Assembly: GCF_003073045.1 (NCBI RefSeq)
Contig: NC_037593.1
Location: forward strand, 12,966,735 to 13,030,734
Length of the DNA: 64,000 nt
DNA from: Pomacea canaliculata
Lineage: Eukaryota; Mollusca; Gastropoda; Architaenioglossa; Ampullariidae
Direction of reading: 5' to 3'
Shown: positions 5,691-31,687 of the stretch, piece after piece
How positions within the stretch are numbered: position 1 is the first letter of the stretch
Layout of the letters: every line of letters starts with the position of its first letter
Notes under the pieces: model-generated
The model's input: only the letters and a program-made list of their open reading frames with translations
Told to the model about the DNA's origin: nothing
Database searches by the model: none
Program-made: the position numbers and the translations under genes

Positions 5691-6071
5691 AAGGTTAGTA
5701 GAACGACAATTAAAGGACCCAAAACTGTCCTGAAGGTCTCTAGTGGATGCCTTATATGTGCTGCAGTAGGTATAAAGAAGAGCAACTTTTACGTGTTGCA
5801 CCAACATTTAGTTAGGTTTTATGTCAATAATCAAACTGTAATAACGCAGAAAGAAAAATCAAACTGCCAATGTCTGGGTTTTTTTTCTCCGGTTTACAGA
5901 TAGGCACGCGCAGCTTCCCACTTCACCCACCAAATATGTACGTGAGATATAACTTACAAAACATATCTGCACATTATATTATTATTTGTTGAGTTACCAC
6001 ATCTCCAGTTACAAGTGTGTTAACCATGTGTCTGTTCACAAGAGGTCACATCCCGCCGCATCCAAGACAAA

Positions 6072-9000
6072 ATGGCGGCAACATGGCTTCTCGTCACTCT
6101 CATCTGGGGTAAGTGTTCTTTGCTCTCATCTCACACTGCAGCTGAAACAAATCTCCACTTCTACTCTACCAAGACTGATAAATGTTGATTTCCTATGACA
6201 GCTAAAAGGCGGGAATCGAGTATCGAGAAGCGACTCATATATTTTTGTATTTACCAGACACCGCTGCTCCCATTATTCTGCCTTCAATGGAGTATACCCC
6301 TGTTACACAAAGCTGCCTCTCTTGAGAATCTGATTACAGTTACATCTTCTGCACTTGTGCATACGATTCCTTTTCAAGAATTAATTAATCCGGGAAATAT
6401 TTCTGTACTGACAAAACCGATCTGAAGAATATTTATTTCGTCGTTAAATGAAACCGATATAATCTGGACATTATCCATTCTCTAAATACAAAAATAGAAA
6501 TGACATGAACACATGAACAACGGCTATATGGTAACAGTTTTAGATTCATGTATCATTGGTTTAATTATATATCATTGTTGTAATATCCGCATACATACAG
6601 CAAGTACACATATACATGTTTCGGTTAAGACCTGCAGATAGTTGGTCACGTGTACCGTATTTATTTATATATAGTTGCTGTTATAATCACATCCCTTTAG
6701 TAAAACCAGCACAAGGTGCACTATATTAATATCTATGTGGTATTTAATCTACTACCTGAGATATTTATATATACTTCTTTAGAAAATATAAACATCATCA
6801 CGTTTGTCGCACGAGATTGATAATAGTGTGAACACATGCTTACTCATTACTTCCATTATAACTAAATGTACCCAACTATCATCTTCTATCTTCGGGTCCC
6901 CTGGCAGCCTGTTTAAAAGGAATGAGTGTGCATACCGCGGAGACAAACGAAACAGATCTCAGCATCGTGACACAGTGCAAGGGAAGTAACCTGACACTGC
7001 ACGAGGCCACTCCACGAGTTACTGTTCGTTACGTGTTTCGTGGAGGAGAAACTCTCGCCAGTGCGTCTGTACCGGCCACGGGAAAGCTTAAGGTAAGTGA
7101 TAAATAAAGAAGTAAATGGAAAAGTTTTGGTATATCTCTTATTTTTAAATATTTCTCCTTTTTTCACAGGGCCGTCTGATTGTGAACAGCGATGGACGAG
7201 TGACTCTGACCGACCTGAAGTCACATGACCTCGGGACGTACGGTGTGGAGGTGCAACTGGCTGAAGACAAGCGAATACACAGCATCGGACTGGTCGTCAG
7301 GGGTAGGAAAAATAAGCGGGTAGACAGAGTTGAAATGCAGAAAAAAAAGGATGTATATCATATAGCATTGGGCTGGTCGTTAGAGAAATCGTGTCACACG
7401 ACAGTTTTGTTTGCGTGACCGGCGGCAATGTTAGCTAAACAAAACATGTACATGAAATATTTTAATGTACTCTTTTATTTTCAACTTTCGATGCAGAACC
7501 GCCTAAAACAGTCGACGGGAAGTTATTTGTGATGAAGAATTACTTTTCAGACAGTGGTTCTATTCATCTAACATGTGGTACCTTTACAACTCTAGGCTTT
7601 CCGCCCGTTTCAGCAGTATGGAAGGTATGCTGAAGCAAATAAGCTCATAGTAGATTTTTAACAAGGAAGGAAAAAAGAAAAAAATTGAGGGAGTGGTAAA
7701 GAGAGAGAGAGAAAGAGAGAGAGAAAGAGAGAGAAAGCTAGCAATCGAGACAGTGCATGCACTTGCTTCCATAGAGATGAGATATAAAATAATGTTTGAC
7801 ACTTTCAGTCTGTTGAATATATATAAACTGTTAATTACAACTATGTAAGATTTGTGCTTTCTTGCTTATTTGCACACACATCAGTATCTGTGTGTGCGCG
7901 TGTACCTGAGTGTGTGTGTTTGAGCATGTACATTACATGCGTTTGCAAATGTCAAACAAGACATTTCACACACATACATGTACTTTATTTTCACAGGATC
8001 CCGCAGGTCGAGCACTAAGCAGCGATGGGTTTAAGGATGAGTACTTTTACCTGGATGTACCTGCCGACACGGCGGACTCTGGTGACTACTGCTGTCAGCT
8101 GGACTGCCGAGCCCCCGACTTCTGTTGTCTTGACGACCAGTCGCCGTTAAGGTCATGCGCAACGGTGCACGTGCAGACAAACAAGAAGGTCGAGGTCGTG
8201 ACAAAGGAGAGTGTGTCACTAGAAGCCTTTTCACAATTACAGCAGCAAGTCTTGGACTTGGCCAGGAGCCAGCAGGAGTCACATGACGGGGGATGCCGCC
8301 AGAGTGCTGTGACCGCGATAGCTCATCTGGCTGAACTTCAAGCCAAATCCGACGCTTACCTGAACACAGTAAAAAGCTTTGAAAAGGAGCTAGAGAGAAG
8401 CCTGGAGAATGTGAAGAACATCAGCGCAGAGGATCGAGTTAAACTACAAATAGAAACTAATCAGATGTTGCAGAATGTTCAACTTCAGCTGGATTATAAT
8501 ATTTCTAAAGCTATGGAAACCTGCAATGACTTTCAGCAACAGCTAAGAGTTGAAGATATGAAGCTCGAGTTAAACCAGACCACACTTTCTACAAGTGTAG
8601 AAGCCCTGGAACAGAGGTTAGACAAAGACTTCCTAGAAATGAGTAAAAGTAGTGCTAAGATGCAAAATAATCTCGAGACAAACATGAAGTCCATGCAAAG
8701 TCTTGAAGCGCAAATGAACAACTTCTCGAAGGTCGCTGATAAAAGATTTGTACAACTGGAAGCTGAGAGGACAAACAGAACGGCAAATCTCCAGCAAGCA
8801 ATAACTAAGGACGTATCAAAGTTAGAAGAAACACTGTCAGCACTCGAGAGAAAACTGTCAGCTATGGAGGAAACGTTCGAGAAAAAGATGGTACAGCAAA
8901 TATCAGACATGAAAATTTCCTTCACTCAATACCAACAGACCACTGCACAGGAACTGACCGACGTCAGAGGGAGAACGGACACTCGGCTGTCACAACTCGA

Positions 9001-9235
9001 GAGAAGACTGTCAACTTCGGAGAATACTATCAACAGTCATGTGACCAGCTCAAGCCAGTCACATACAAGCTTAGTTTCGGAGTTGGCGGCATTCGTTAGG
9101 AAGACAAATGCAGTGACTGAGTGTATGTATATATCTCTGCATTATTTTCAAAGTGCACGATTCGTTTGTTATAACTAATTAAGCGATGTATTCTTACATT
9201 TATTCTCCGAAGACAATGTACTCCTCTAAATCTTT

Positions 9236-9291
<56 letters not shown>

Positions 9292-10674
9292 TTTTTGCGA
9301 CAGATTACACGATTGACATGAAAAAAACGTTTGCACATTGAAAAAAAAGACATTTTTCTCCCCTAACTTCCCTTTCCTTCCAAATTGTGCGCTAAACATT
9401 TGTTCAAATATGTCTTGAAAATATTTGTATTGAAAATGAGTTCCTTCCTGTGTCTTTCAGCACTAAAGAATCAACTAACAACAATGAACAATCAGCTGAC
9501 AGCAAAACGATGTGAGTTGTTTGTTTTCTTTGTATGGAGCTCACATTTATTAAATGTTCTTAACAAGGTTAAATGTTCCCTTCAGTGGTGTTCTTCAATC
9601 AGGACTTGAATACTGTGTATCCTGACACAAATGAGAGAACACGCTCACGATCATCACCTCCACGTTATCAGGGTACCCGGGTACACTCACTCATAGACTA
9701 ACAAGACACACAGGCAGACGTCAGTTACAGCAGGATATATACCTTAAGTTAGATCAGTGATGCCCAACCTTTTTCGGCCTGCGGGCCATACACATTTCCG
9801 ACACGCGTGTCACGGGCCACTTTACCGCAAAAATACAAAAAAAAAAAAAAATAAAAAAATAAAAAATAGAGCAGATACCATTTTTATTAGAAACAAGTTG
9901 TACTTACCATTAATTATGTAGTAATTAGTGGGATATTTGAAGCTGTTTTCCCAAAACCAACTTCTGAATATCCGGCTGCATCGTAGAGACACCAAGTCGG
10001 AGAACTGAATCGAAATGTTTGTCCATCGAAAAAAAGATTGGGAAACGCCCCTACATAGGGATAAATACTTCTTCCTTTTTTTTTCTTTTTTTCCGTTTTT
10101 TAGGTCTTTTTTTATTACTAACATGCCGATTTCTTGCACTGTGGGCAGAAGTTTCGCGGGCCGGATGGCACCGCTTCGCGGGCCGAATATGGCCCGCGGG
10201 CCGTAGGTTGGGCATCCCTGCCTTACAGGTTTTTTCTTTGTGTTTTCGACTTATTGTTTTTATTACGCTACTAGCATCGAAAGATTTTACACCTAGACGT
10301 GAATTAGGGATTTATATATTTGTACGGTTTTTGTATTTAATTGCATGCATACTGTTTTTTTTTTTTTTGTCCTCTTGATTTGTGCTTTGTAAGCAGGTGA
10401 GTCTGGCGTCAAACACTTCTCGCCGCATGATCAGCCCAGTGATGGGTCACTGTGGAGAACTAAAACAGATCACGTCGACTTTACCCGCCCCTTCACAACC
10501 AAGCCGACGGTGGCTATTGGCATCACTAGTCTCGACGTAAGCAACTGGTCTAATTTGAGGATCCAGGTACGTGTTGGTACCATCTCCACTTCCGGTTTCG
10601 ACGTGCATGCCTCAGAGTGGAGTGATACATACACCTACAGCGTGGCTGCCGTCTGGATGGCTTGTAACGTCTGA
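6072..10674 (+). CDS. gene A: secreted Ig-Ig-coiled coil-H-type lectin protein
   Basis: Exons: 6072-6108, 6908-7092, 7170-7302, 7497-7624, 7997-9122, 9461-9511, 10397-10674. They join in frame to 645 aa. Residues 1-13 are a signal peptide (MAATWLLVTLIW). Ig1 spans about 14-118, with the B-strand CKGSNLTL but no F-strand Cys (TYGVEV). Ig2 spans 119-221 and is canonical (LTCGTF; DSGDYCCQLDC). Residues 222-553 form a long coiled coil ending in a 17-aa mini-exon. Residues 554-645 are an H-type lectin domain (VDFTRPFTTKPTVAIGI, SGFDVHASEWSDT, AAVWMAC), the fold of Helix agglutinin, which binds GalNAc. The layout is that of snail FREPs and CREPs with a different head, so a secreted pattern-recognition lectin that multimerises through the coil is inferred. 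Codon phase at every junction supports the model; the donor of exon 5 is GTATGT at 9123. Intron 6 carries a MITE absent from gene B. Confidence 0.85.
7700..7737 (+). repeat. GA-rich microsatellite in gene A intron 4
   Basis: An imperfect (GA)n run with GAAA interruptions. It is intronic and has no visible counterpart at the same place in genes B and C. Confidence 0.8.
9238..9291 (+). repeat. (CAT)n microsatellite in gene A intron 5
   Basis: A pure CAT/ATC trinucleotide run of about 18 units. Gene B has a TCC-rich run at the same intron position (16,554-16,604), so a trinucleotide tract was probably present before duplication and then evolved separately. Confidence 0.9.
9755..10220. mobile_element. 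hAT-like MITE in gene A intron 6
   Basis: The ends are inverted repeats of roughly 30 bp: left CAGTGATGCCCAACCT, right (reverse complement) CAGGGATGCCCAACCT, each followed by a GGCC-rich stretch. Such CAG-GG..CCCAACCT ends are typical of hAT elements. There is no transposase frame. An 8-bp target duplication is not obvious. Gene B lacks the element at the matching position (around 17,070), so it inserted after the A/B duplication. Confidence 0.75.
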
Positions 10675-11733
10675 AGAAAAAGCACGACAACGAGCAGCGC
10701 CTCTTCTTAGCGCGTGCCATCCATTCTCAGACAGATCTTAGATATCCCTGACCGTTTGTGATTACATGTACTTCCTGTTTACAACCGACAACTAAATCTT
10801 CAGATATTTTCTAATTTAAAAGTTGTCTGTATCTACCAGGTAACGTTCGTGTCAGCTACACATGGATGATAGATTTGTGCACTTTCATTTGGCATACTAT
10901 GAGAACCGGATATATGTATATATACACGTATACAATATATAAAATTCAATTACATAATGTTTTCTATTTCAATATTCTCACTGACATGCGCTCGCACACA
11001 CACACACACATACAGAAATTTGTGTAAGCACAACGGGCAGCTCAGGCGTTCAAACGATCAGTATATCGTTTGGAACTGCGATAATGTGGGTATGTGACAT
11101 TTTAAAATGTAGCTAATGAAAAAATGACTAATTTGTTATCGCATCTAAACATGGGTGTATATATATCTACAAACTCACATTGCCACATATATACAAAATA
11201 AAAACGTAAAATTACACATATCCACACAAATATTTACATGTAAGTCTACACATTTGTCCCTAACAATATCAAGACAAAAATGTATACACACTTCTACACA
11301 ATTACTGACAAATCTATGTATTCGTGTATACGCATATCGACACATAAATCTATTTATACCCCTGTGTTTATATATATATACTTATGTGTGCACATTACCA
11401 TTCTTAGGTCTCCCATTGCATTTACACAGGATTATCTCAGCCTGTCCATCCAAAAGCTGCCGTGCAAATAGATAGATGGCTGATTTATCTGGGATGATGT
11501 ATGCATGTTTTTTTTTTAGTCTGTCTCCATCTGGGGCCTCTCTCTCTCTCTCTTCCTCTGATTTGGTCGTTCTGTCTTTCCGTTTCTTGGTTTCCATCAC
11601 TGGTATGTTTAATATGGTTCTATAATTTTCCTTTTGTCATTCATTTCTCTCCATATATATATCTACAAGCTAAGTCTAAGTTTTTGTGTGTTCGCGAATG
11701 TGACCCTCCAGTGTACAGTTGTGTCGTGTACTT
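10675..11733 (+). other. gene A 3' untranslated/flanking region
   Basis: Sequence after the gene A stop is collinear with that after gene B (17,531 onward) apart from local insertions. A CA run and AT-rich words at about 10,910-11,400 make up most of the difference. No other gene is seen. Confidence 0.5.
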
Positions 11734-11739
11734 AATAAA
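11734..11739 (+). terminator. probable polyadenylation signal of gene A
   Basis: AATAAA in a context (TAATAAAGACATTCAAGCCAG) that is conserved at the matching place after gene B. About 1 kb after the stop codon. Distance and conservation support it, but no transcript end is known. Confidence 0.45.
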
Positions 11740-12717
11740 GACATTCAAGCCAGTCTCGCTCGTTACCACTCCTAGTCCCTGTCTGCTATAATTCATGTTG
11801 TTTGTTTATCACACTACAGCTTGTGCTCTAATGTGTTTACTTCAGTAGGTGTCAAGGTCGAGACAGCATGCAAACAGATCGTGTAGGCCTGGTTCTATAA
11901 AAAGAGTATATCTTCAAGTAGACTGTGTTTCAGGAAGTGGGGAAAACCTACATTAACACTGGCAGTTCTTTTCTGAACTAGTTTAATAACAGAAGGATAG
12001 TAGGGAGAGAAACAGTGTGTGTACTGCTCACCTAAGCGCTCTATGTATGCCACTGATATAAATAAAAACTATTTTTTTTATTTATAATAACTCTTAAAAT
12101 TCTTTTCTGTGTTCATTTTTCTTAATTCTACACACACTCTGTCATACTCTTCCCCGTGTAGCAGCTATTGTGTACCTCGACATATTGAACATTTGTGACA
12201 CCTACCTGGATCACTTTCATTTTTAGTATTACCAAAATATTTTTAACGGGCTATAAAAATAAAATGGTATAGCATGGTACTTTCTATAAACGTACCATCA
12301 AGGGGGCATTAAACATGACTATAAGTTATTTTCCTCTCGATAAACAAACATTTCCACCGAGAGGCAAGCACTGGGAAGTGAGAACATATGTATAGCTGTC
12401 TAAAACTCGCCTTCAAATGATGCTTATCTTCAAAGTTTTGCTCTCTCAAAGAAAGAAGCTAGTCATGCTGTTAAAAGCATGATGCCAACTTGTTTGCAAC
12501 CACTTTTATCTCTGTCTGTGGAGCACTGTGGCGGGGATTCAGTGACAGTTTAGTCTCCAGCAAAACACAAGACAAGGATGCGGGGAGCGCCACGAGCAAG
12601 GTTCTAAAACGAGAAACAGTTTCTGGTGAGCAGCAGACTGGCAGACAGCACGAAAGGAGGGGAACAGTCGATGTTTACGACAATCAGTGTTTGTGACAAA
12701 TTCTTGTCTGCACGGCA

Positions 12718-12806
12718 AGGTATGTTGTATATGTTGTATATGGTGTATATGTTGTATATGTTGAATATGTTGTATGTGTTGTATGTGTTGTATATGTTGT
12801 ACATGT
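12718..12806 (+). repeat. 9-bp TGTTGTATA minisatellite upstream of gene B
   Basis: About ten imperfect units of TGTTGTATA. A matching but longer array (19,460-19,601) lies upstream of gene C. The open frames it produces (repeating MLY) are a by-product of the 9-bp period. Confidence 0.85.
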
Positions 12807-13328
12807 TCAGTCATTAGGCGTGTCTACACACATATACATTATGCTTATTTCACTCACTGTATTTGTCTGCATATTGTTGTAGGATCAGTCAGCAAGCTTG
12901 TCTGCCCACTTCAGTATATTGTAAACTCAGTAGTTAAAAAAAAATAAAAAGAAAGGGAAAATAAATACTTATTCCATTTGGCTTATTAAGGTTAGTACGT
13001 TTCACAATTAATATATCATGTATTGTTATAATCATCAAAACGTTTACGGCAATAGTGTAGTTTGCAATCGAGTATTGCCTTCAAAATATTCGGTGTGCTA
13101 TCTAGTTTTTCTCTCTGATAAACATGGAAGCATGCGCAACTTCCCTTACATCCATATATACATATAAATGTATGTCTGTTAATGGTTATACAAAACGTAC
13201 ATACAAAACATTCATACCTAATAAACAGCTCATAACTTTCAAGTAATAAGATTATTGTTGAGATCATATTAATACACTTCCTGTCAATGATGTGTCTGTT
13301 TATAAGACCTCGCCTCCTGTCACTTGTA

Positions 13329-16300
13329 ATGGCGCCTGCATGGCTTCTCGTCGCTCTCACCTGGGGTGAGTGTTCTTCATTCTCATCAGTCCTTTTTCAC
13401 GCGAAATCTTCTTAATGTTCATTTCCAGTGAGAACTAAAAGGCGCAATATTGTGTCGGTAATAAGAAGCGATTCATATATCTTTGTATTTACCAGGCATC
13501 GCTTCTCCCATTACAATCAATTCTGTTTTCAAAAAGAACAAACCTCTATTAGATCATTTAGACATCCTTTCCTTCAGTCACCGTTCAGAAAGCTTCATCT
13601 CTTAAGAATCTGCATACAGTAACATCTTTTACACTTATCTTTGGGCAAGAAGCCAATAATCGGGGAAATATTTCAGTACTGACCAAAATATGCTATGAAA
13701 TATATTTCTTCCGTCTGTTAAACTGCAACAGATAAAATCTGGACATTGTTTATTATCAAGAGATAACTCAAAACTGGTGTGAATTCTTGAACTACGCCTA
13801 TAGAGAAATAGTTTTAGAGTTGGAGATCCTGTCATCACGGGGCGCGTGGGTGATGCAGGCCAAGACCTTCAGTGACCACGTGACCAACACCACGCCAGGT
13901 CTGGTCAGTCAGCGGGAGGGAAACAAAGGGCGAAATGCCACATCAAGTCCTAATACATATCTTTAGGGTAACCCTGTTGGCATCGTGTGGATATCGCTGC
14001 ATCACACCTCTTGAGAATCTTCACACGGTTGATAAAGGATATAATTATGTACAATTTTATATCTTTGATATGTCACTCTCTTCGTCTTTTCCTAATACAA
14101 TTAAAGTAATAGCCACTACAAACGCTAACTCAATGACAAATTTTGTAATTAGGTTCCCTGGCAGCCTGTTCCAAAGGAAAGAGCGTTGATGCCGCTGAGA
14201 CAATAGAAACAGATATAAGTAAAGTTGTGAGGTGCAAGGGAAGTAACCTAACACTGTACGAACCAGATCCACGAGTTACCGTTCGTTACGTGTTTCGTGG
14301 AGGAGAAACTCACGCCAGGTCTGGTCAGTCAGCGGGAGGGAAACTAAGGGCGAAATGCCACATCAAGTCCCCATACATATCTTTAGGGTAACCCTGTTGG
14401 CATCGTGTGAATATCTCTGCATCACACCTCTTGAGAAAAATCTTCACACGGTTGATAAAGGATATAATTATGTACAATAATTATTTTATATCTTTGATAT
14501 GTCACTCTTGGCTTTTCGTATTACAATTAAAATAACAGCCACTACAATTTTTGTAACCAGGTACCCTGGCAGCCTTTTTCAAAGGAAAGAGCGTTGATGC
14601 CGCTGAGACAGTAGAAACACACATAAGTAAAGTTGTGAGGTGCAAGGGAAGTAACTTGACACTTAATGAACCAGATCCACGAGTTACCGTTCGTTACGTG
14701 TTTCGTGAAGGAGAAACTCTCGCCAGTGCGTCTGTACCCGCCACGGGAAAGCTTGAGGTAAGTGATAAAGAAATGGACAGATGATGGACGTGCTGATGCG
14801 CCTAACAAATTTCACATTTCTAAATGCTCACGGTTTTTCTCAGGGCCGTCTGATAGTGGACAGCGATGGACGAGTGACTCTGATCGACCTGAAGTCACAT
14901 GACCTCGGGACGTACGGTGTGGAGGTGCAACTGGCTGAAGACAAGCGAATACACAGCATCGGACTGGTCGTCAGGGGTACGAAGAGAGAGAAGCAGTTAA
15001 TCAGAGCTGGATAATGAGTAGTCACGGCTTGTCATTAGTGGTAAAAAGATGGACAGGGGACAAAGAAGGCAGATGGATGAAAATGGCAGTCAGCCAGACC
15101 TAAGAAACGAAGGGATGAATAAAATTAGATATATCAGAAATTTTGAAGATGAATGCTTGAATAAATTTATATTTATGAATATAGATTTTAAATATCTAAT
15201 GCAGATTCGCCTGTAACCGCTGGCGAGCAGTTACTTGTGATGAGCGTGTCACATGACAGTTCTATTCGCCTGACCTGCGGCAATTTCACCTCCTTAGGAT
15301 TTCCGCCCGTTTCAGTCATGTGGAAGGTAAAAATAAATGCCATATGAAACTTGTGTATGTGTGCGATGGATAGAGAGAATGCTATGTTGTTAGTGTGTGT
15401 GTCCGTGTATTTATTCATGTGCACAAGAGAACAATCCAGTGGAGATGAACGTTCTCAGTTCTCTGTTTACAGGATCCCGCAGGTCGAACACTAAGCAGTG
15501 ACGGGTTTAAGGATGAGTACTTTTACCTGGATGTACCTGCCGACACGGCGGACTCTGGTGACTACTGCTGTCAGCTGGACTGCCGAGCCCCCGACTTCTG
15601 TTGTCTTGACGACCAGTCGCCGCTACGGTCGTGCGCAAAAGTGCACGTGCAGACAAACAAGAAGGTCGAGGTCGTGACAAAGGAGAGTGTGTCCCTAGAA
15701 GCCTTTTCACAATTACAGCAGCAAGTCTTGGACTTGGCCAGGAGCCTGCAGGAGTCACATGACGGGGGATGCCGCCAGAATGCTGTGACCGCGATAGCTC
15801 ATATGACTGAACTTCAAGCCAAAACAGACGATTACCTGAACACAGTGAAAAGCTTTGAAAAGAAGCTAGAGAGAAGCCTGGAGAATGTGAAGAACATCAG
15901 CGCAGAGGATCGATTTCAGCTGCAGAGAGAGACCAATCAGATTCTGGAGAACGTTCAACTTCAGTTGGATTACAATATTTCTAAAGCTATGGAAACCTGC
16001 AATGACTTTCAGCAACAGCTAAGAGTTGCACATATGAAGCTCGAGTTAAACCAGACCTCCCTTTCTACAAGTGTAGAAGCCCTGGAACAGAGGTTAGACA
16101 ACGACTTGCTAGAAGTACGTAAAAGTAGTGTTAAGATACAAAATAATCTCGAGACAAACATGAAGTCCATGCAGCGTCTAGACAAGCGACTGGAGGACTT
16201 CTCCAAGGCCGCTGATGAAAGATTTGTACAACTGGAAGCTGAGAGGGAAAACAGAACGGCAAATCTCCAACAAGCAATAAATAACGACGTATCAAAGTTA

Positions 16301-17530
16301 GAAGAAAAACTGTCAGCACTCGAGAGAAGACTGTCAACTTCGGAGGACACTATCAACAGTCATATGACCAGCTCAAGCCAGTCACTTACAAGCTTAGTTT
16401 GGGTGTTGGCGGCACTCGTTAACAAGACAGATGAAGTGACTGAGTGTATGTATATATCTCTGCATCATATCCAAACTGCAAGACTCGTTTGTAATAACTA
16501 ATTGAGCGATGTATTCTTACTATTATTCTCCAAAGACAATATACTCCTCTAAATCCTCCTCCTCCTCCTCCTCCTCTTCCTCCTCCTCCTCATCCTCATC
16601 ATTATCATTTTTGTGACAGATTACACGATTGACGTGAAAAAAACCCTTAGCCCATTGAAAATAAATAACATTTTTCTTCCCTTAGTTCTCTTTCCTTCCA
16701 AATTGTGCACTAAAGATTTGTTTCAATATGTCTTGAAAATATTTGTATTGAAAATGAGTTCCTTGCTGTGTCTTTCAGCACTAAAGCATCAACTAACAAC
16801 ATTGAACAATCAACTGACAGCAATGGAAAATCAGCTGACAGCAAAACGATGTGAGTTGCTTGTTTTCTTTGTATGGAGCTCACATTTATTATATGTTCTT
16901 ATCTAGGTTAAATGTCCCCTTCAGTGGTGTTCTTCAATCAGGACTGTGTATCCTACTGGCGCAAATGAGAGGACATGCTCACGATCATCACCTCCGCGTT
17001 ATCAGGGTACACGGGTACACTCACTCATAGACAAACAAGACACAGGCAGACGTCAGTTATCGCAGTGTATAGACTTTAGAGCTTTTTGCTTCGTGTTTTC
17101 GACTTATTTTTTCTATTACATTACTAACATCGAAAGATTTACACCTAGACGTGAATTAGGGATTGTTATATTTGTACGGTTTTTTTATTTATTGCATGTA
17201 TACTTTGTTTATGTCCTCATGATTTGTGCTTTGTAAACAGGTGAGTCTGGCCGCATAAACTTCTGGCCACATGATCAGCCCAGTGTGCGTCAGCCGAATG
17301 GGGAAGTGAGCAGAACTCACAGAGTTCACGTCGACTTTACCCTCCCCTTCACAACCAAGCCGACGGTTGCTGTTGGTATCACTCGTCTCGACGTAAGCAA
17401 CAAGTTTAATGTGAGGATCGATGTAGGTGTTGATACCATCTCCACTTCCGGTTTCGACATGCATGCCTACCAGTGGAGTGATACACACACCTACAGCGCG
17501 GCTGCCGTCTGGATGGCTTGTAACGTCTGA
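13329..17530 (+). CDS. gene B: secreted Ig-Ig-coiled coil-H-type lectin protein
   Basis: Exons: 13329-13365, 14573-14757, 14844-14976, 15205-15326, 15473-16445, 16779-16850, 17241-17530. They join to 603 aa, nearly a copy of gene A: signal peptide MAPAWLLVALTW, Ig1 (14-118), Ig2 (119-219, DSGDYCCQLDC), coiled coil (220-507) and H-type lectin head (508-603; VDFTLPFTTKPTVAVGI, SGFDMHAYQWSDT). Two differences change the rod: the coil exon is 153 nt shorter than in A, in frame, and the mini-exon is 21 nt (one heptad) longer. The first codons of Ig1 read AFFKG where A and C have ACLKG and ACYKG, so an N-terminal Cys is lost. An extra truncated copy of exon 2 lies upstream (14,165-14,318). Sugar binding and an immune role are inferred from the family, not shown here. 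Confidence 0.85.
13893..14720 (+). repeat. 420-bp local tandem duplication within gene B intron 1/exon 2
   Basis: Two units, 13,893-14,312 and 14,313-14,720, repeat the end of intron 1 and the first part of exon 2. All three borders fall on the word CGCCAG, which suggests microhomology-mediated duplication. Unit 2 leads into the full-length exon 2. The copies differ at several bases and by small indels, so it is not an assembly stutter of identical sequence. Confidence 0.8.
14165..14318 (+). pseudogene. truncated duplicate of gene B exon 2 (Ig1 half)
   Basis: After a good acceptor (CCCTGGCAG) the frame reads ACSKGKSVDAAETIETDISK and on to GGETHA, then the exon is cut at CGCCAG by the duplication junction. 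The first 149 nt match exon 2 of B and C; the last about 30 nt are missing. The junction supplies a GT, but splicing there would give a 154-nt exon that breaks the frame. It keeps the Cys codon that the full exon 2 of gene B has lost. Confidence 0.75.
16554..16604 (+). repeat. TCC-rich microsatellite in gene B intron 5
   Basis: An imperfect (TCC)n/(TCA)n run at the same intron position as the (CAT)n run of gene A. Confidence 0.85.
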
Positions 17531-20128: not shown

Positions 20129-23100
20129 ATGGCGCCTGCGTGGCTTCTCGTCGCTCTCACCTGGGGTGAGTGTTCTTCATCAAGTCCTCATACATATCTT
20201 TAGAGTAACCCTGTTGGTATCGTGTGGATATCTCTACATCACACCTCTTCAGAAAATCTTCACACGGTTGGTAAAGGATATAATTATGTACAATTTTATA
20301 TCTTTGATATGTCACTCTTGGCTTTCCGTAATACAAGTAAAATAATAGCCACTACAAACGCTTACTCATTACTTAAGTCAAAACTAAATGATCTAACTCA
20401 ATGACAATTTTTGTAAGGTTCCCTGGCAGCCTGTTACAAAGGAGAGAGCGTTGATGCCGCTGAGACAGTAGAAACACATATAAGTAAAGTTGTGAGGTGC
20501 AAGGGAAGTAACTTGACACTGAACGAACCAGATCCACGAGTTACCGTTCGTTACGTGTTTCGTGGAGGAGAAACTCTCGCCAGTGCGTCTGTACCCGCCA
20601 CGGGAAAACTTGAGGTAAGTGATAAATAAATGGACAGATGATGGACGTGCGGATATGATTAACCAATTTCACATTTCTAAATGCTCACGGTTTTTCTCAG
20701 GGCCGTCTGATTGTGGACAGCGATGGACGAGTGACTCTGACCGACCTGAAGTCACATGACCTCGGGACGTACGGTGTGGAGGTGCAACTGGCTGAAGACA
20801 AGCGAATACACAGCATCGGACTGGTCGTCAGGGGTAGGAAGAGAGATAAGCAGTTAAACAGAGCTGAATGATAAGTCATTAGTAGTCAAAAGATAGGGGA
20901 CAAATAAAGTAGAAGGATGAAAATGGCGGTCAGACAGACGTAAGAAACGAAGGGATGAATAAAATGAGATGTATCAGAAATTTTGCAGATGAATGATTGA
21001 ATAAATGTATATTTATGTGTATAGATTTTTGAATATCTAATGCAGATTCACCTGTAACCGCTGGCGGGCAGTTATTTGTGATGAGCGTGTCACATGACAG
21101 TTCTATTCGCCTGACCTGCGGCAATTTCACCTCCTTAGGATTTCCACCCGTTTCAGTCATGTGGAAGGTAAAGATAAAGGCAATATGAAACTTGTGTTTG
21201 TGTGTGAGGGAGAGAGAGAATGCTATGTTGTTAGTGTGTGTGTCCGTGTATTTATGCATGTGCACTAGAGAACAATCCAGTGGAGATGAACGTTCTCAGT
21301 TCTCTGTTAACAGGATCCCGCAGGTCGAACACTAAGCAGTGACGGGTTTAAGGATGAGTACTTTTACCTGGATGTACCTGCCGACACGGCGGACTCTGGT
21401 GACTACTGCTGTCAGCTGGACTGCCGAGCCCCCGACTTCTGTTGTCTTGACGACCAGTCGCCGCTAAGGTCGTGCGCAAAAGTGCACGTGCAGACGAAGA
21501 AGGTAGAGGTCAAGACAAAAGACAGTGTCTCCTTTGAAGCCTTTTCACAGTTACAACAGCAGGTCTTGCACTTGGTGCAGAAGCTGCAAGACTTACAGGA
21601 CAATAATCAACAAAACTCCTGTCAGAGCAGTGCGTCCGCGATGGCTCAGCTGGTTCACCGGCAAGCCAAGTGTGACCAGCTGGACACTTACATTACAAAA
21701 ATAGAGGCTTTGGAAGGGGATATAGTGAGAGACATAGAGAACTTGAAGAACACTACTACAGACGCCAACATTAAACTAGAGAGAGAAACGAACCAGACTT
21801 TGCTGAACTTTCAGCTTCAGGTAGATGACAAGATATCTACAGCTACAGAATCATGTAATGTTGGTCAACAGCAGATAATGACAACAGTTTCTGACAAACT
21901 AGAAGTGTTAGAAACGAGACTAAGCGAGGGCTTAGTTGAGTTACACAATGTTAGTGCCAGTGCCGACGATAGACTGGAGACAAACATGAACCGATCCCTG
22001 GAACATCTCCAGGAATATCAGTTGGAGCTGGGTACTAACATTTCCATAGCTGTGGAATCCTTCAGTAGACTTCAGGAACTTCTACTGACAACAGAAAAAA
22101 GACTGGAAATGAAGATAACAGCAGTTTCAGAAAAAGTGGACAACTTTGAATCCAGACTAAACAAAGATGGAGGCCTTGAATTAAACATAACCACAGCTTT
22201 GAACCAGGCTGAAGATTTGAGACAAAGATTAAACACAATTTCTCGGGCAGCTGACGATCACCGGTCACAGTCTAACAAGCAAATTGGAGAACTTCAAACT
22301 GGACTTGCTGGTCTGCAACAAACAGTAAACAACGTGACGTCACAGTTGGAGAAAACATTCAGACAGGTGACGTCAGATCTCAGGGTTACGATGACCAGCA
22401 ATGTCCAGACATTGACAAACCGAACAGCGAAAACTGAGGCTTCGGGTGTCGGACCTCGAGAAGAAACTGTCAGCCATCGACGAAGATAATCGTTTAAACT
22501 ATTCCACGATCATTGACACGATTTTGAAGGGTATGGGTATTGATATTTTTCTTCTACGATCGTTTAAAGAATACACACACACGCACGCATGCGCGCATAT
22601 CTTAAAATCCTTATCACCATCACAATGATAATAACCATCACCATCCACCACCAGTAGCGTAGTCCTCATGATCCAAACATCATGAAATATTTGTAATGTT
22701 TTTCTCGATGATCGAACCAGTGTGGTTTGTGGAAGAACAATGTTTAACTATTTTCGTTCTTTCAGGTCAGTGTCCTACGAAGAACGGCTTCGTGTTTTAC
22801 AGGGGAGCCTGCTTGAAGGTTTCAACGGCACGAGTGAGCTACGATTCTGCAGTATCACTCTGCGCGAGAGACGATGCTCACCTGTTCGAGGTCAAGTCGG
22901 CCATTTTAGACGAGGAGCGAGTGCGTTACGCTGTTAACAAAACAGGTAAACTGTGAGTGTGGAGTCAGAGTGAAAATGTATTTACACATTTTCAAATTTT
23001 GTTAACGAGCAACCAGGTAAAACCCAAGATTAATGAGTAAGTGTATTTGAAGGTTCTTCATGAAGCACATTAATATGACAAAAAAGGGAAGAGGCTGAGG

Positions 23101-23667
23101 AAAAAATGAAAAAAGCGAGAGAAAGAGAGAAGGAGAGAGAAAAAGGACCATGCGAGTCTACATCTATGTGTGCGGCTGTCAGTTTGTATGTTTGCGTGTT
23201 TGTCCTTGTCTGGAGCTGTCTCCTTGCGTCTCTGTTTCAATGTGCGCGCGCGTGTGTGTGTGTGTGTGCGCGACTATGTAGTAAATGAAGGAAAGATTGA
23301 ATAGATGTAGAGTAAAAATCATTAATATTTTTTATACCATCTTAATTTAATTTATAACTTATACACTATTTATTTTATTGAAACGACACACATTTATATA
23401 ACATAAATATAATTTATTTTTCATCACACAGGACTAACTAGTAACGACATCAGTCTTTGGTTGGGAGGATTCGACCTCGGGACATCCTATCATCGGAGTG
23501 ACGCACGTCCTCGGTCGTCTGGATGGGATTTACTTCAGCCGGGTTATTGGAACAGACATAAAGAATGTCTCTTACTACACCTGTCTCCCCAAACCTTTGC
23601 CCTTTACCAGCCTCACCGCTACAGATGCTCTGGCTCCTACAATTATGTTTGTCAGTACGATTTGTAG
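20129..23667 (+). CDS. gene C: Ig-Ig-coiled coil-C-type lectin protein (CREP-like), apparent frameshift
   Basis: Exons: 20129-20165, 20430-20614, 20701-20833, 21046-21167, 21314-22530, 22766-22945, 23432-23667. Signal peptide, Ig1 and Ig2 are almost the same as gene B up to about 21,495; the coiled coil after that point is different (roughly 220-565). The head is a C-type lectin-like domain: GQCPTKNGFVFYRGACLK opens it, then SLCARDDAHL, WLGGFDLG and the closing YRCSGSYNYVCQYDL. The usual calcium/sugar motifs (EPN or QPD, and WND) are not present, so calcium-dependent sugar binding is doubtful. Near 22,436 the coil frame shifts and would end after about 17 residues at 22,489; the next frame resumes a good coil (LEKKLSAIDEDN) and runs to a donor at 22,531. 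It is either a sequence error or a truncated Ig-coil product. Intron 1 is about 1 kb shorter than in B. Confidence 0.75.

Positions 23668-26569: not shown

Positions 26570-31687
<5,118 letters not shown>

Follow-up and report, generated by a model that had tools for sequence, protein, structure and literature searches.

HREP-type genes of Pomacea canaliculata: probable capture of an H-type lectin head through a phase-1 intron

The closest described relatives of the genes reported here are the HREPs, proteins with Ig-like and H-type lectin domains known from gastropod transcriptome scans (PMC8878817, published in 2022 and crediting Gorbushin 2019), to which the present genes are likened by the description in the relevant passages of that paper. 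The same passages and those of PMC10672478 name the QREPs, in which Ig is combined with C1q, while PMC9178244 describes a lectin of P. canaliculata that combines two Ig domains with SRCR, and PMC10875847, in the section concerned, gives gene conversion and exon shuffling as the means of FREP diversification. An earlier note on this DNA had proposed a possible fourth class of snail Ig-lectin, to be given up if Ig plus H-lectin proteins had already been described in molluscs; such a description stands in the HREP passages of PMC8878817 and, together with the naming of QREPs (PMC8878817, PMC10672478), rules out a fourth class. The two genes are best read, from their sequence, as known HREPs formed by lectin-head capture through a phase-1 intron, and novelty, if any, would lie in where the head came from and not in the class; no account of HREP origin was found in the portions of the literature searched, and Gorbushin 2019 itself may contain one.

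The window, by which is meant the whole stretch of 64,000 nucleotides analysed (C4:12966735-13030734, in a genome of 440,159,624 bases and 24 contigs), contains two HREP-type genes on its forward strand. Gene A (6072-10674) has seven exons (6072-6108, 6908-7092, 7170-7302, 7497-7624, 7997-9122, 9461-9511 and 10397-10674) and encodes 645 aa, and gene B (13329-17530) likewise has seven (13329-13365, 14573-14757, 14844-14976, 15205-15326, 15473-16445, 16779-16850 and 17241-17530) and encodes 603 aa. When spliced, each gene is read in one frame with the terminal stop as its sole stop, all six introns are GT-AG and the phases after exons 1-6 are 1,0,1,0,1,1 in both. The predicted proteins have the same order, a hydrophobic N-terminus followed by two Ig-like domains, a heptad coil and the H-type lectin domain, so that Ig-superfamily domains (assigned by profile, below the Pfam cut-offs) lie N-terminal of the lectin domain within one protein. 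In a hydropathy scan for a candidate secretion signal, the highest 11-residue value was found at the N-terminus in A and in the coil in B, whose N-terminus is hydrophobic too. The claim of two intact Ig-Ig-coil-H-lectin genes in the earlier note was thus borne out by open frames, GT-AG introns and H_lectin scores above cut-off, and the start at 6072, the stop at 17530 and the gene B junctions 16445/16779 and 16850/17241 are exactly as it gave them.

The HMM search that it had also proposed confirmed the H_lectin family for both proteins and not the Ig family, since none of the Pfam Ig models scored over its own cut-off when run against the whole A and B proteins. Ig1 is split over exons 2 and 3 (6908-7302 in A, 14573-14976 in B) and Ig2 is divided between exon 4 and the first part of exon 5 (7497-8176 in A, 15205-15652 in B). 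Searches with the single Ig1 and Ig2 sequences gave weak Ig matches. A profile of 12 Ig2 sequences from related loci, run against the PDB, found mainly Ig-fold chains with a few non-Ig chains lower down, the best being titin with a whole-sequence E of 9e-10 to which six weak domain matches contribute (best single-domain i-Evalue 1.3). The corresponding Ig1 profile of nine sequences also found mainly Ig-fold chains, again with a few non-Ig chains lower down, with CEACAM1/biliary glycoprotein as the best at 1.9e-4 (best single domain 0.17), and the conserved columns of Ig1 are without the second canonical cysteine. With the Pfam cut-offs unmet and the profile scores modest, the Ig assignments rest on profile resemblance together with the C...W...DxGxYxC pattern. 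According to the passages on the subject in PMC9334734, molluscan VIgL Ig domains usually miss the Pfam Ig cut-offs. The coil part of exon 5 (8177-9122 in A, 15653-16445 in B) was scored for heptads with a home-made measure and stands 5.9 s.d. (A) and 5.4 s.d. (B) above 300 shuffles per gene, none of which reached the observed value in either case.

Exon 7 (10397-10674 in A, 17241-17530 in B) encodes the H-type lectin head, which scores 64.2 bits in A and 60.3 bits in B with PF09458 (curated cut-off 24) and among solved structures matches Helix pomatia agglutinin (2ccv, 4.2e-10 over 80 residues). The agglutinins of Helix pomatia and Helix aspersa are free domains, whereas in A and B the head follows Ig-Ig-coil. 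Pfam searches of both proteins gave no match to Lectin_C, Fibrinogen_C, C1q, galectin or SRCR domains. When the two heads are compared with five sugar contacts of the Helix pomatia protein (Asp26, Arg63, Trp83, His84 and Tyr89), Arg, Trp and Tyr look kept and His is replaced by Ser, the alignment being ambiguous at Asp26. Between coil and head lies exon 6 (9461-9511 in A), a short heptad exon that ends in a cysteine codon; in B (16779-16850) it is longer by 21 bases, that is, by seven residues or one heptad.

Alongside A and B two further genes share the chassis exon plan with phases 1,0,1,0,1, as in CREPs and FREPs, the H-type lectin head being what sets A and B apart. Gene C (20129-23667, +) consists of chassis exons 1-5 followed by two exons for a C-type lectin head (Lectin_C 21.0 bits, below the cut-off of 22.6), and its coil frame is broken near 22430 with a stop at about 22487 and a coil-like frame continuing in another phase, which may reflect a pseudogene, an allele or an assembly error. 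Gene D (26570-31687, +) is a FREP, with a four-exon fibrinogen head (Fibrinogen_C 258.8 bits) and nine exons in one frame. Phase 1 after the coil exon was found in A, B and D. The earlier suggestion of an H-type lectin placed on a putatively secreted immune lectin chassis is upheld by this shared exon plan, the part of it that falls being the new class.

When the genome was searched for H-lectin domains, eight places were found (17 candidates scored), namely A, B and six on contig C6. Three of those on C6, at 3.113, 3.134 and 3.136 Mb, belong to genes with a signal exon, a short coil exon and an H-lectin exon, and the 3.136 Mb gene, judged by eye, has phase 1 throughout and includes an exon corresponding to exon 6; these genes share their last two exons with A and B, and in one of them the adjoining intron and 3' sequence are also alike. 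Thus 9290-9719 of gene A matches the 3.136 Mb gene at 72% on the DNA level, introns included, and 10454-10864 matches it at 68%, including sequence past the stop codon. The segment 9290-9745 (end of intron 5, exon 6 and start of intron 6) has three places in the genome (three candidates scored), A, B (85%) and C6:3136825-3137245 (72%, 7.6e-54), and a dispersed repeat as the source of the intron match was rejected on this count. The segment 10390-10900 has four (four candidates scored), A, B (86%), C6:3136161-3136532 (68%, 4.9e-36) and 93 bases of the 3.113 Mb gene (76%). On the protein level the heads are 52, 52 and 53% (A) and 60, 49 and 54% (B) identical to the 3.136 Mb gene and then its two neighbours, so the protein identity of the A head does not single out the 3.136 Mb gene.

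The putative junction lies in intron 5 of A (9123-9460), where an ATC microsatellite at about 9239-9292 is followed by C6 H-lectin similarity from 9290 on. The coil exon of A has its DNA relatives among the VIgLs of contig C4. It did not match any of the C6 loci examined, and 5900-8200 of the window gave nothing against these loci beyond matches of 23-24 bases (E >= 0.008). A related Ig2 exon was not found beside the C6 coil and H-lectin genes in the genome search with Ig2. None of the VIgL loci compared matched intron 5 in its 5' part (9123-9300), so that the junction is not recognisable on its chassis side. Intron 6 of A, but not of B, contains a repeat of about 470 bases (9749-10225) with at least 39 other genome copies at 88-92%. 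In two further C6 H-lectin exons, at C6:3572970 and C6:14305112, the match stops part-way and the frame continues without the usual end; the former is preceded by a short exon that ends in AKRC, as exon 6 of A and B does.

Similarity between DNA sequences carries no direction and the H-lectin tree is poorly resolved, with one of its six inner branches well supported, which leaves room for a reversed transfer in which an HREP supplied the last exons of the 3.136 Mb gene; since six of the eight H-lectin exons lie on C6, including the most divergent pair (26-29% identity to the others), and the signal-coil-H-lectin plan is common to the neighbouring C6 genes, we consider this direction unlikely. 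Still more improbable is that the H-lectin exons form separate short genes which happen to lie 3' of truncated Ig-Ig-coil genes. Such a layout would agree with the soon-reached stops when exon 5 is read through its donor (at 9178 in A and 16501 in B), by which a headless Ig-Ig-coil product is possible, but the phases of exons 5-6-7 match and the frame is open in both genes, on which grounds a separate H-lectin gene was rejected. The H-lectin genes of C6, moreover, each come with their own signal and coil exons, and no match to these genes is seen in A upstream of 9290.

It is likewise rather unlikely that A and B are decaying copies without function in which open frames persist because the copies are recent. 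The broken coil frame of the adjoining gene C is in line with decay, as is the head, where dN (0.160) is higher than dS (0.068) between A and B (31 versus 4 changes; dN-dS interval -0.007 to 0.184, touching zero), a pattern also compatible with relaxed constraint. Against this, the full frames and every splice site are intact in both genes, the indels of exon 6 preserve the heptad and constraint is seen in the Ig2 part (dN 0.014, dS 0.164, dN-dS interval -0.324 to -0.034).

When gene B was compared with A and C, a recombination breakpoint appeared at 15640-15655 (+), where Ig2 ends and the coil starts (maximum chi-square 246.6, reached in none of 2000 permutations). Informative sites left of it favour C over A by 81 to 6 and those right of it favour A over C by 279 to 25. 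Introns 1-4 of B and the 600 bases upstream are 89-93% identical to C and 44-64% to A (upstream 48.5%), and exons 1, 2 and 4 are 97.3, 95.7 and 96.7% identical to C against 86.5, 80.0 and 68.9% to A. The relation is reversed in the first 700 bases of exon 5 (93.9% to A, 73.8% to C), and beyond this exon B is 87.0% identical to A in intron 5 and 87.8% in exon 7. In exon 4, the A sequence is like that of other C4 genes while those of B and C are set apart. The three genes include at least one recombinant, with B as the simplest choice judging from these patterns and a direction that is open to reversal, as C could have taken its 5' half from B or the 5' half of A could have been replaced. Exon 3 (7170-7302, 14844-14976 and 20701-20832) is 97.7-99.2% identical in all three genes, although between A and B intron 2 is 59% and intron 3 is 44% alike, and this near-identity may reflect strong constraint or a conversion tract of the size of the exon. 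Inside intron 1 of B, a second copy of exon 2 that looks unused is located at 14167-14349.

Taken together, we put at about 0.7 the probability that A and B are HREP-type VIgLs which arose by transfer of a head from a C6-like gene, followed by recombination in B, with the immune role proposed below. The donor module would have consisted of the last two exons and part of an intron of a gene like that at C6 3.136 Mb, encoding a putatively secreted coil and H-lectin, and would have landed in a C4 VIgL gene, 3' of its Ig-Ig-coil exons. Since phase 1 is found both at the end of the coil exon and at the start of the incoming one, the frame would be held. A later recombination within exon 5 would then have joined a 5' half like that of gene C to a 3' half like that of A, giving B. 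The products are predicted to be soluble multimeric recognition proteins, in which the head may bind sugars of the GalNAc/Gal type carried by a microbe or a trematode larva. The coil may assemble the chains as trimers or larger bundles, and a signal may then be passed to hemocytes or other plasma factors by the Ig end; these roles are suggested by analogy with VIgLs and agglutinins. GalNAc-bearing larval glycans would be a plausible target; schistosome larval proteins are said, in the part of PMC5433772 dealing with them, to bear GalNAc-containing lacdiNAc.

A more specific proposal, which we regard as evenly balanced, is that the VIgL chassis has a phase-1 socket for swappable heads after the coil, that a single H-lectin was captured with its heptad exon from another chromosome at the intron microsatellite, that recombination in the coil exon passed this head to a second chassis and that the heads then diverged faster than the Ig part. 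If such a single capture is true, HREPs of other snails might be independent captures. The loci add a readable case of an invertebrate immune receptor family gaining recognition heads, with a probable donor gene, a junction within an intron, phases that match and a neighbouring gene that is recombinant, and worked examples with a source locus in the same genome would make the idea of exon shuffling testable across gastropods.

To place the two genes among their relatives, heads were sought near all chassis copies. A genome search with the 60-residue Ig2 part found 29 places (those at E <= 0.01 among 43 candidates), of which C4 holds 26. In the 5 kb that follow each exon on its own strand, a C-type lectin is found for 18 of the 29 at cut-off (19 when gene C is counted), an H-lectin for two (A and B) and fibrinogen for one (gene D), leaving eight without a head by cut-off and seven once gene C is counted as C-type. 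Of the head candidates, 150 of 360 for Lectin_C and 150 of 481 for Fibrinogen_C were scored, and the tally took in 30 of 143 Lectin_C places, chosen for lying on C4 or close to the chassis copies of C5 and C6, together with all eight H-lectin places and eight of the fibrinogen places listed; with this coverage some of the cases without a head may carry one, gene C being an example. By eye, among the matches listed, there were no C1q heads within 5 kb of the 29 exons. Near A and B no C-type lectin remnants were detected, the sole matches being gene C itself and others at E >= 0.089, so that replacement of a C-type head would be argued from parsimony. A lone C-type lectin VIgL, 93% like the C4 chassis, lies away from the array at C5:7874695, and at 1707-1889 on the reverse strand of the window there is a solitary Ig1 exon, which adjoins ORFs at 7-1293 that by eye resemble parts of a LINE.
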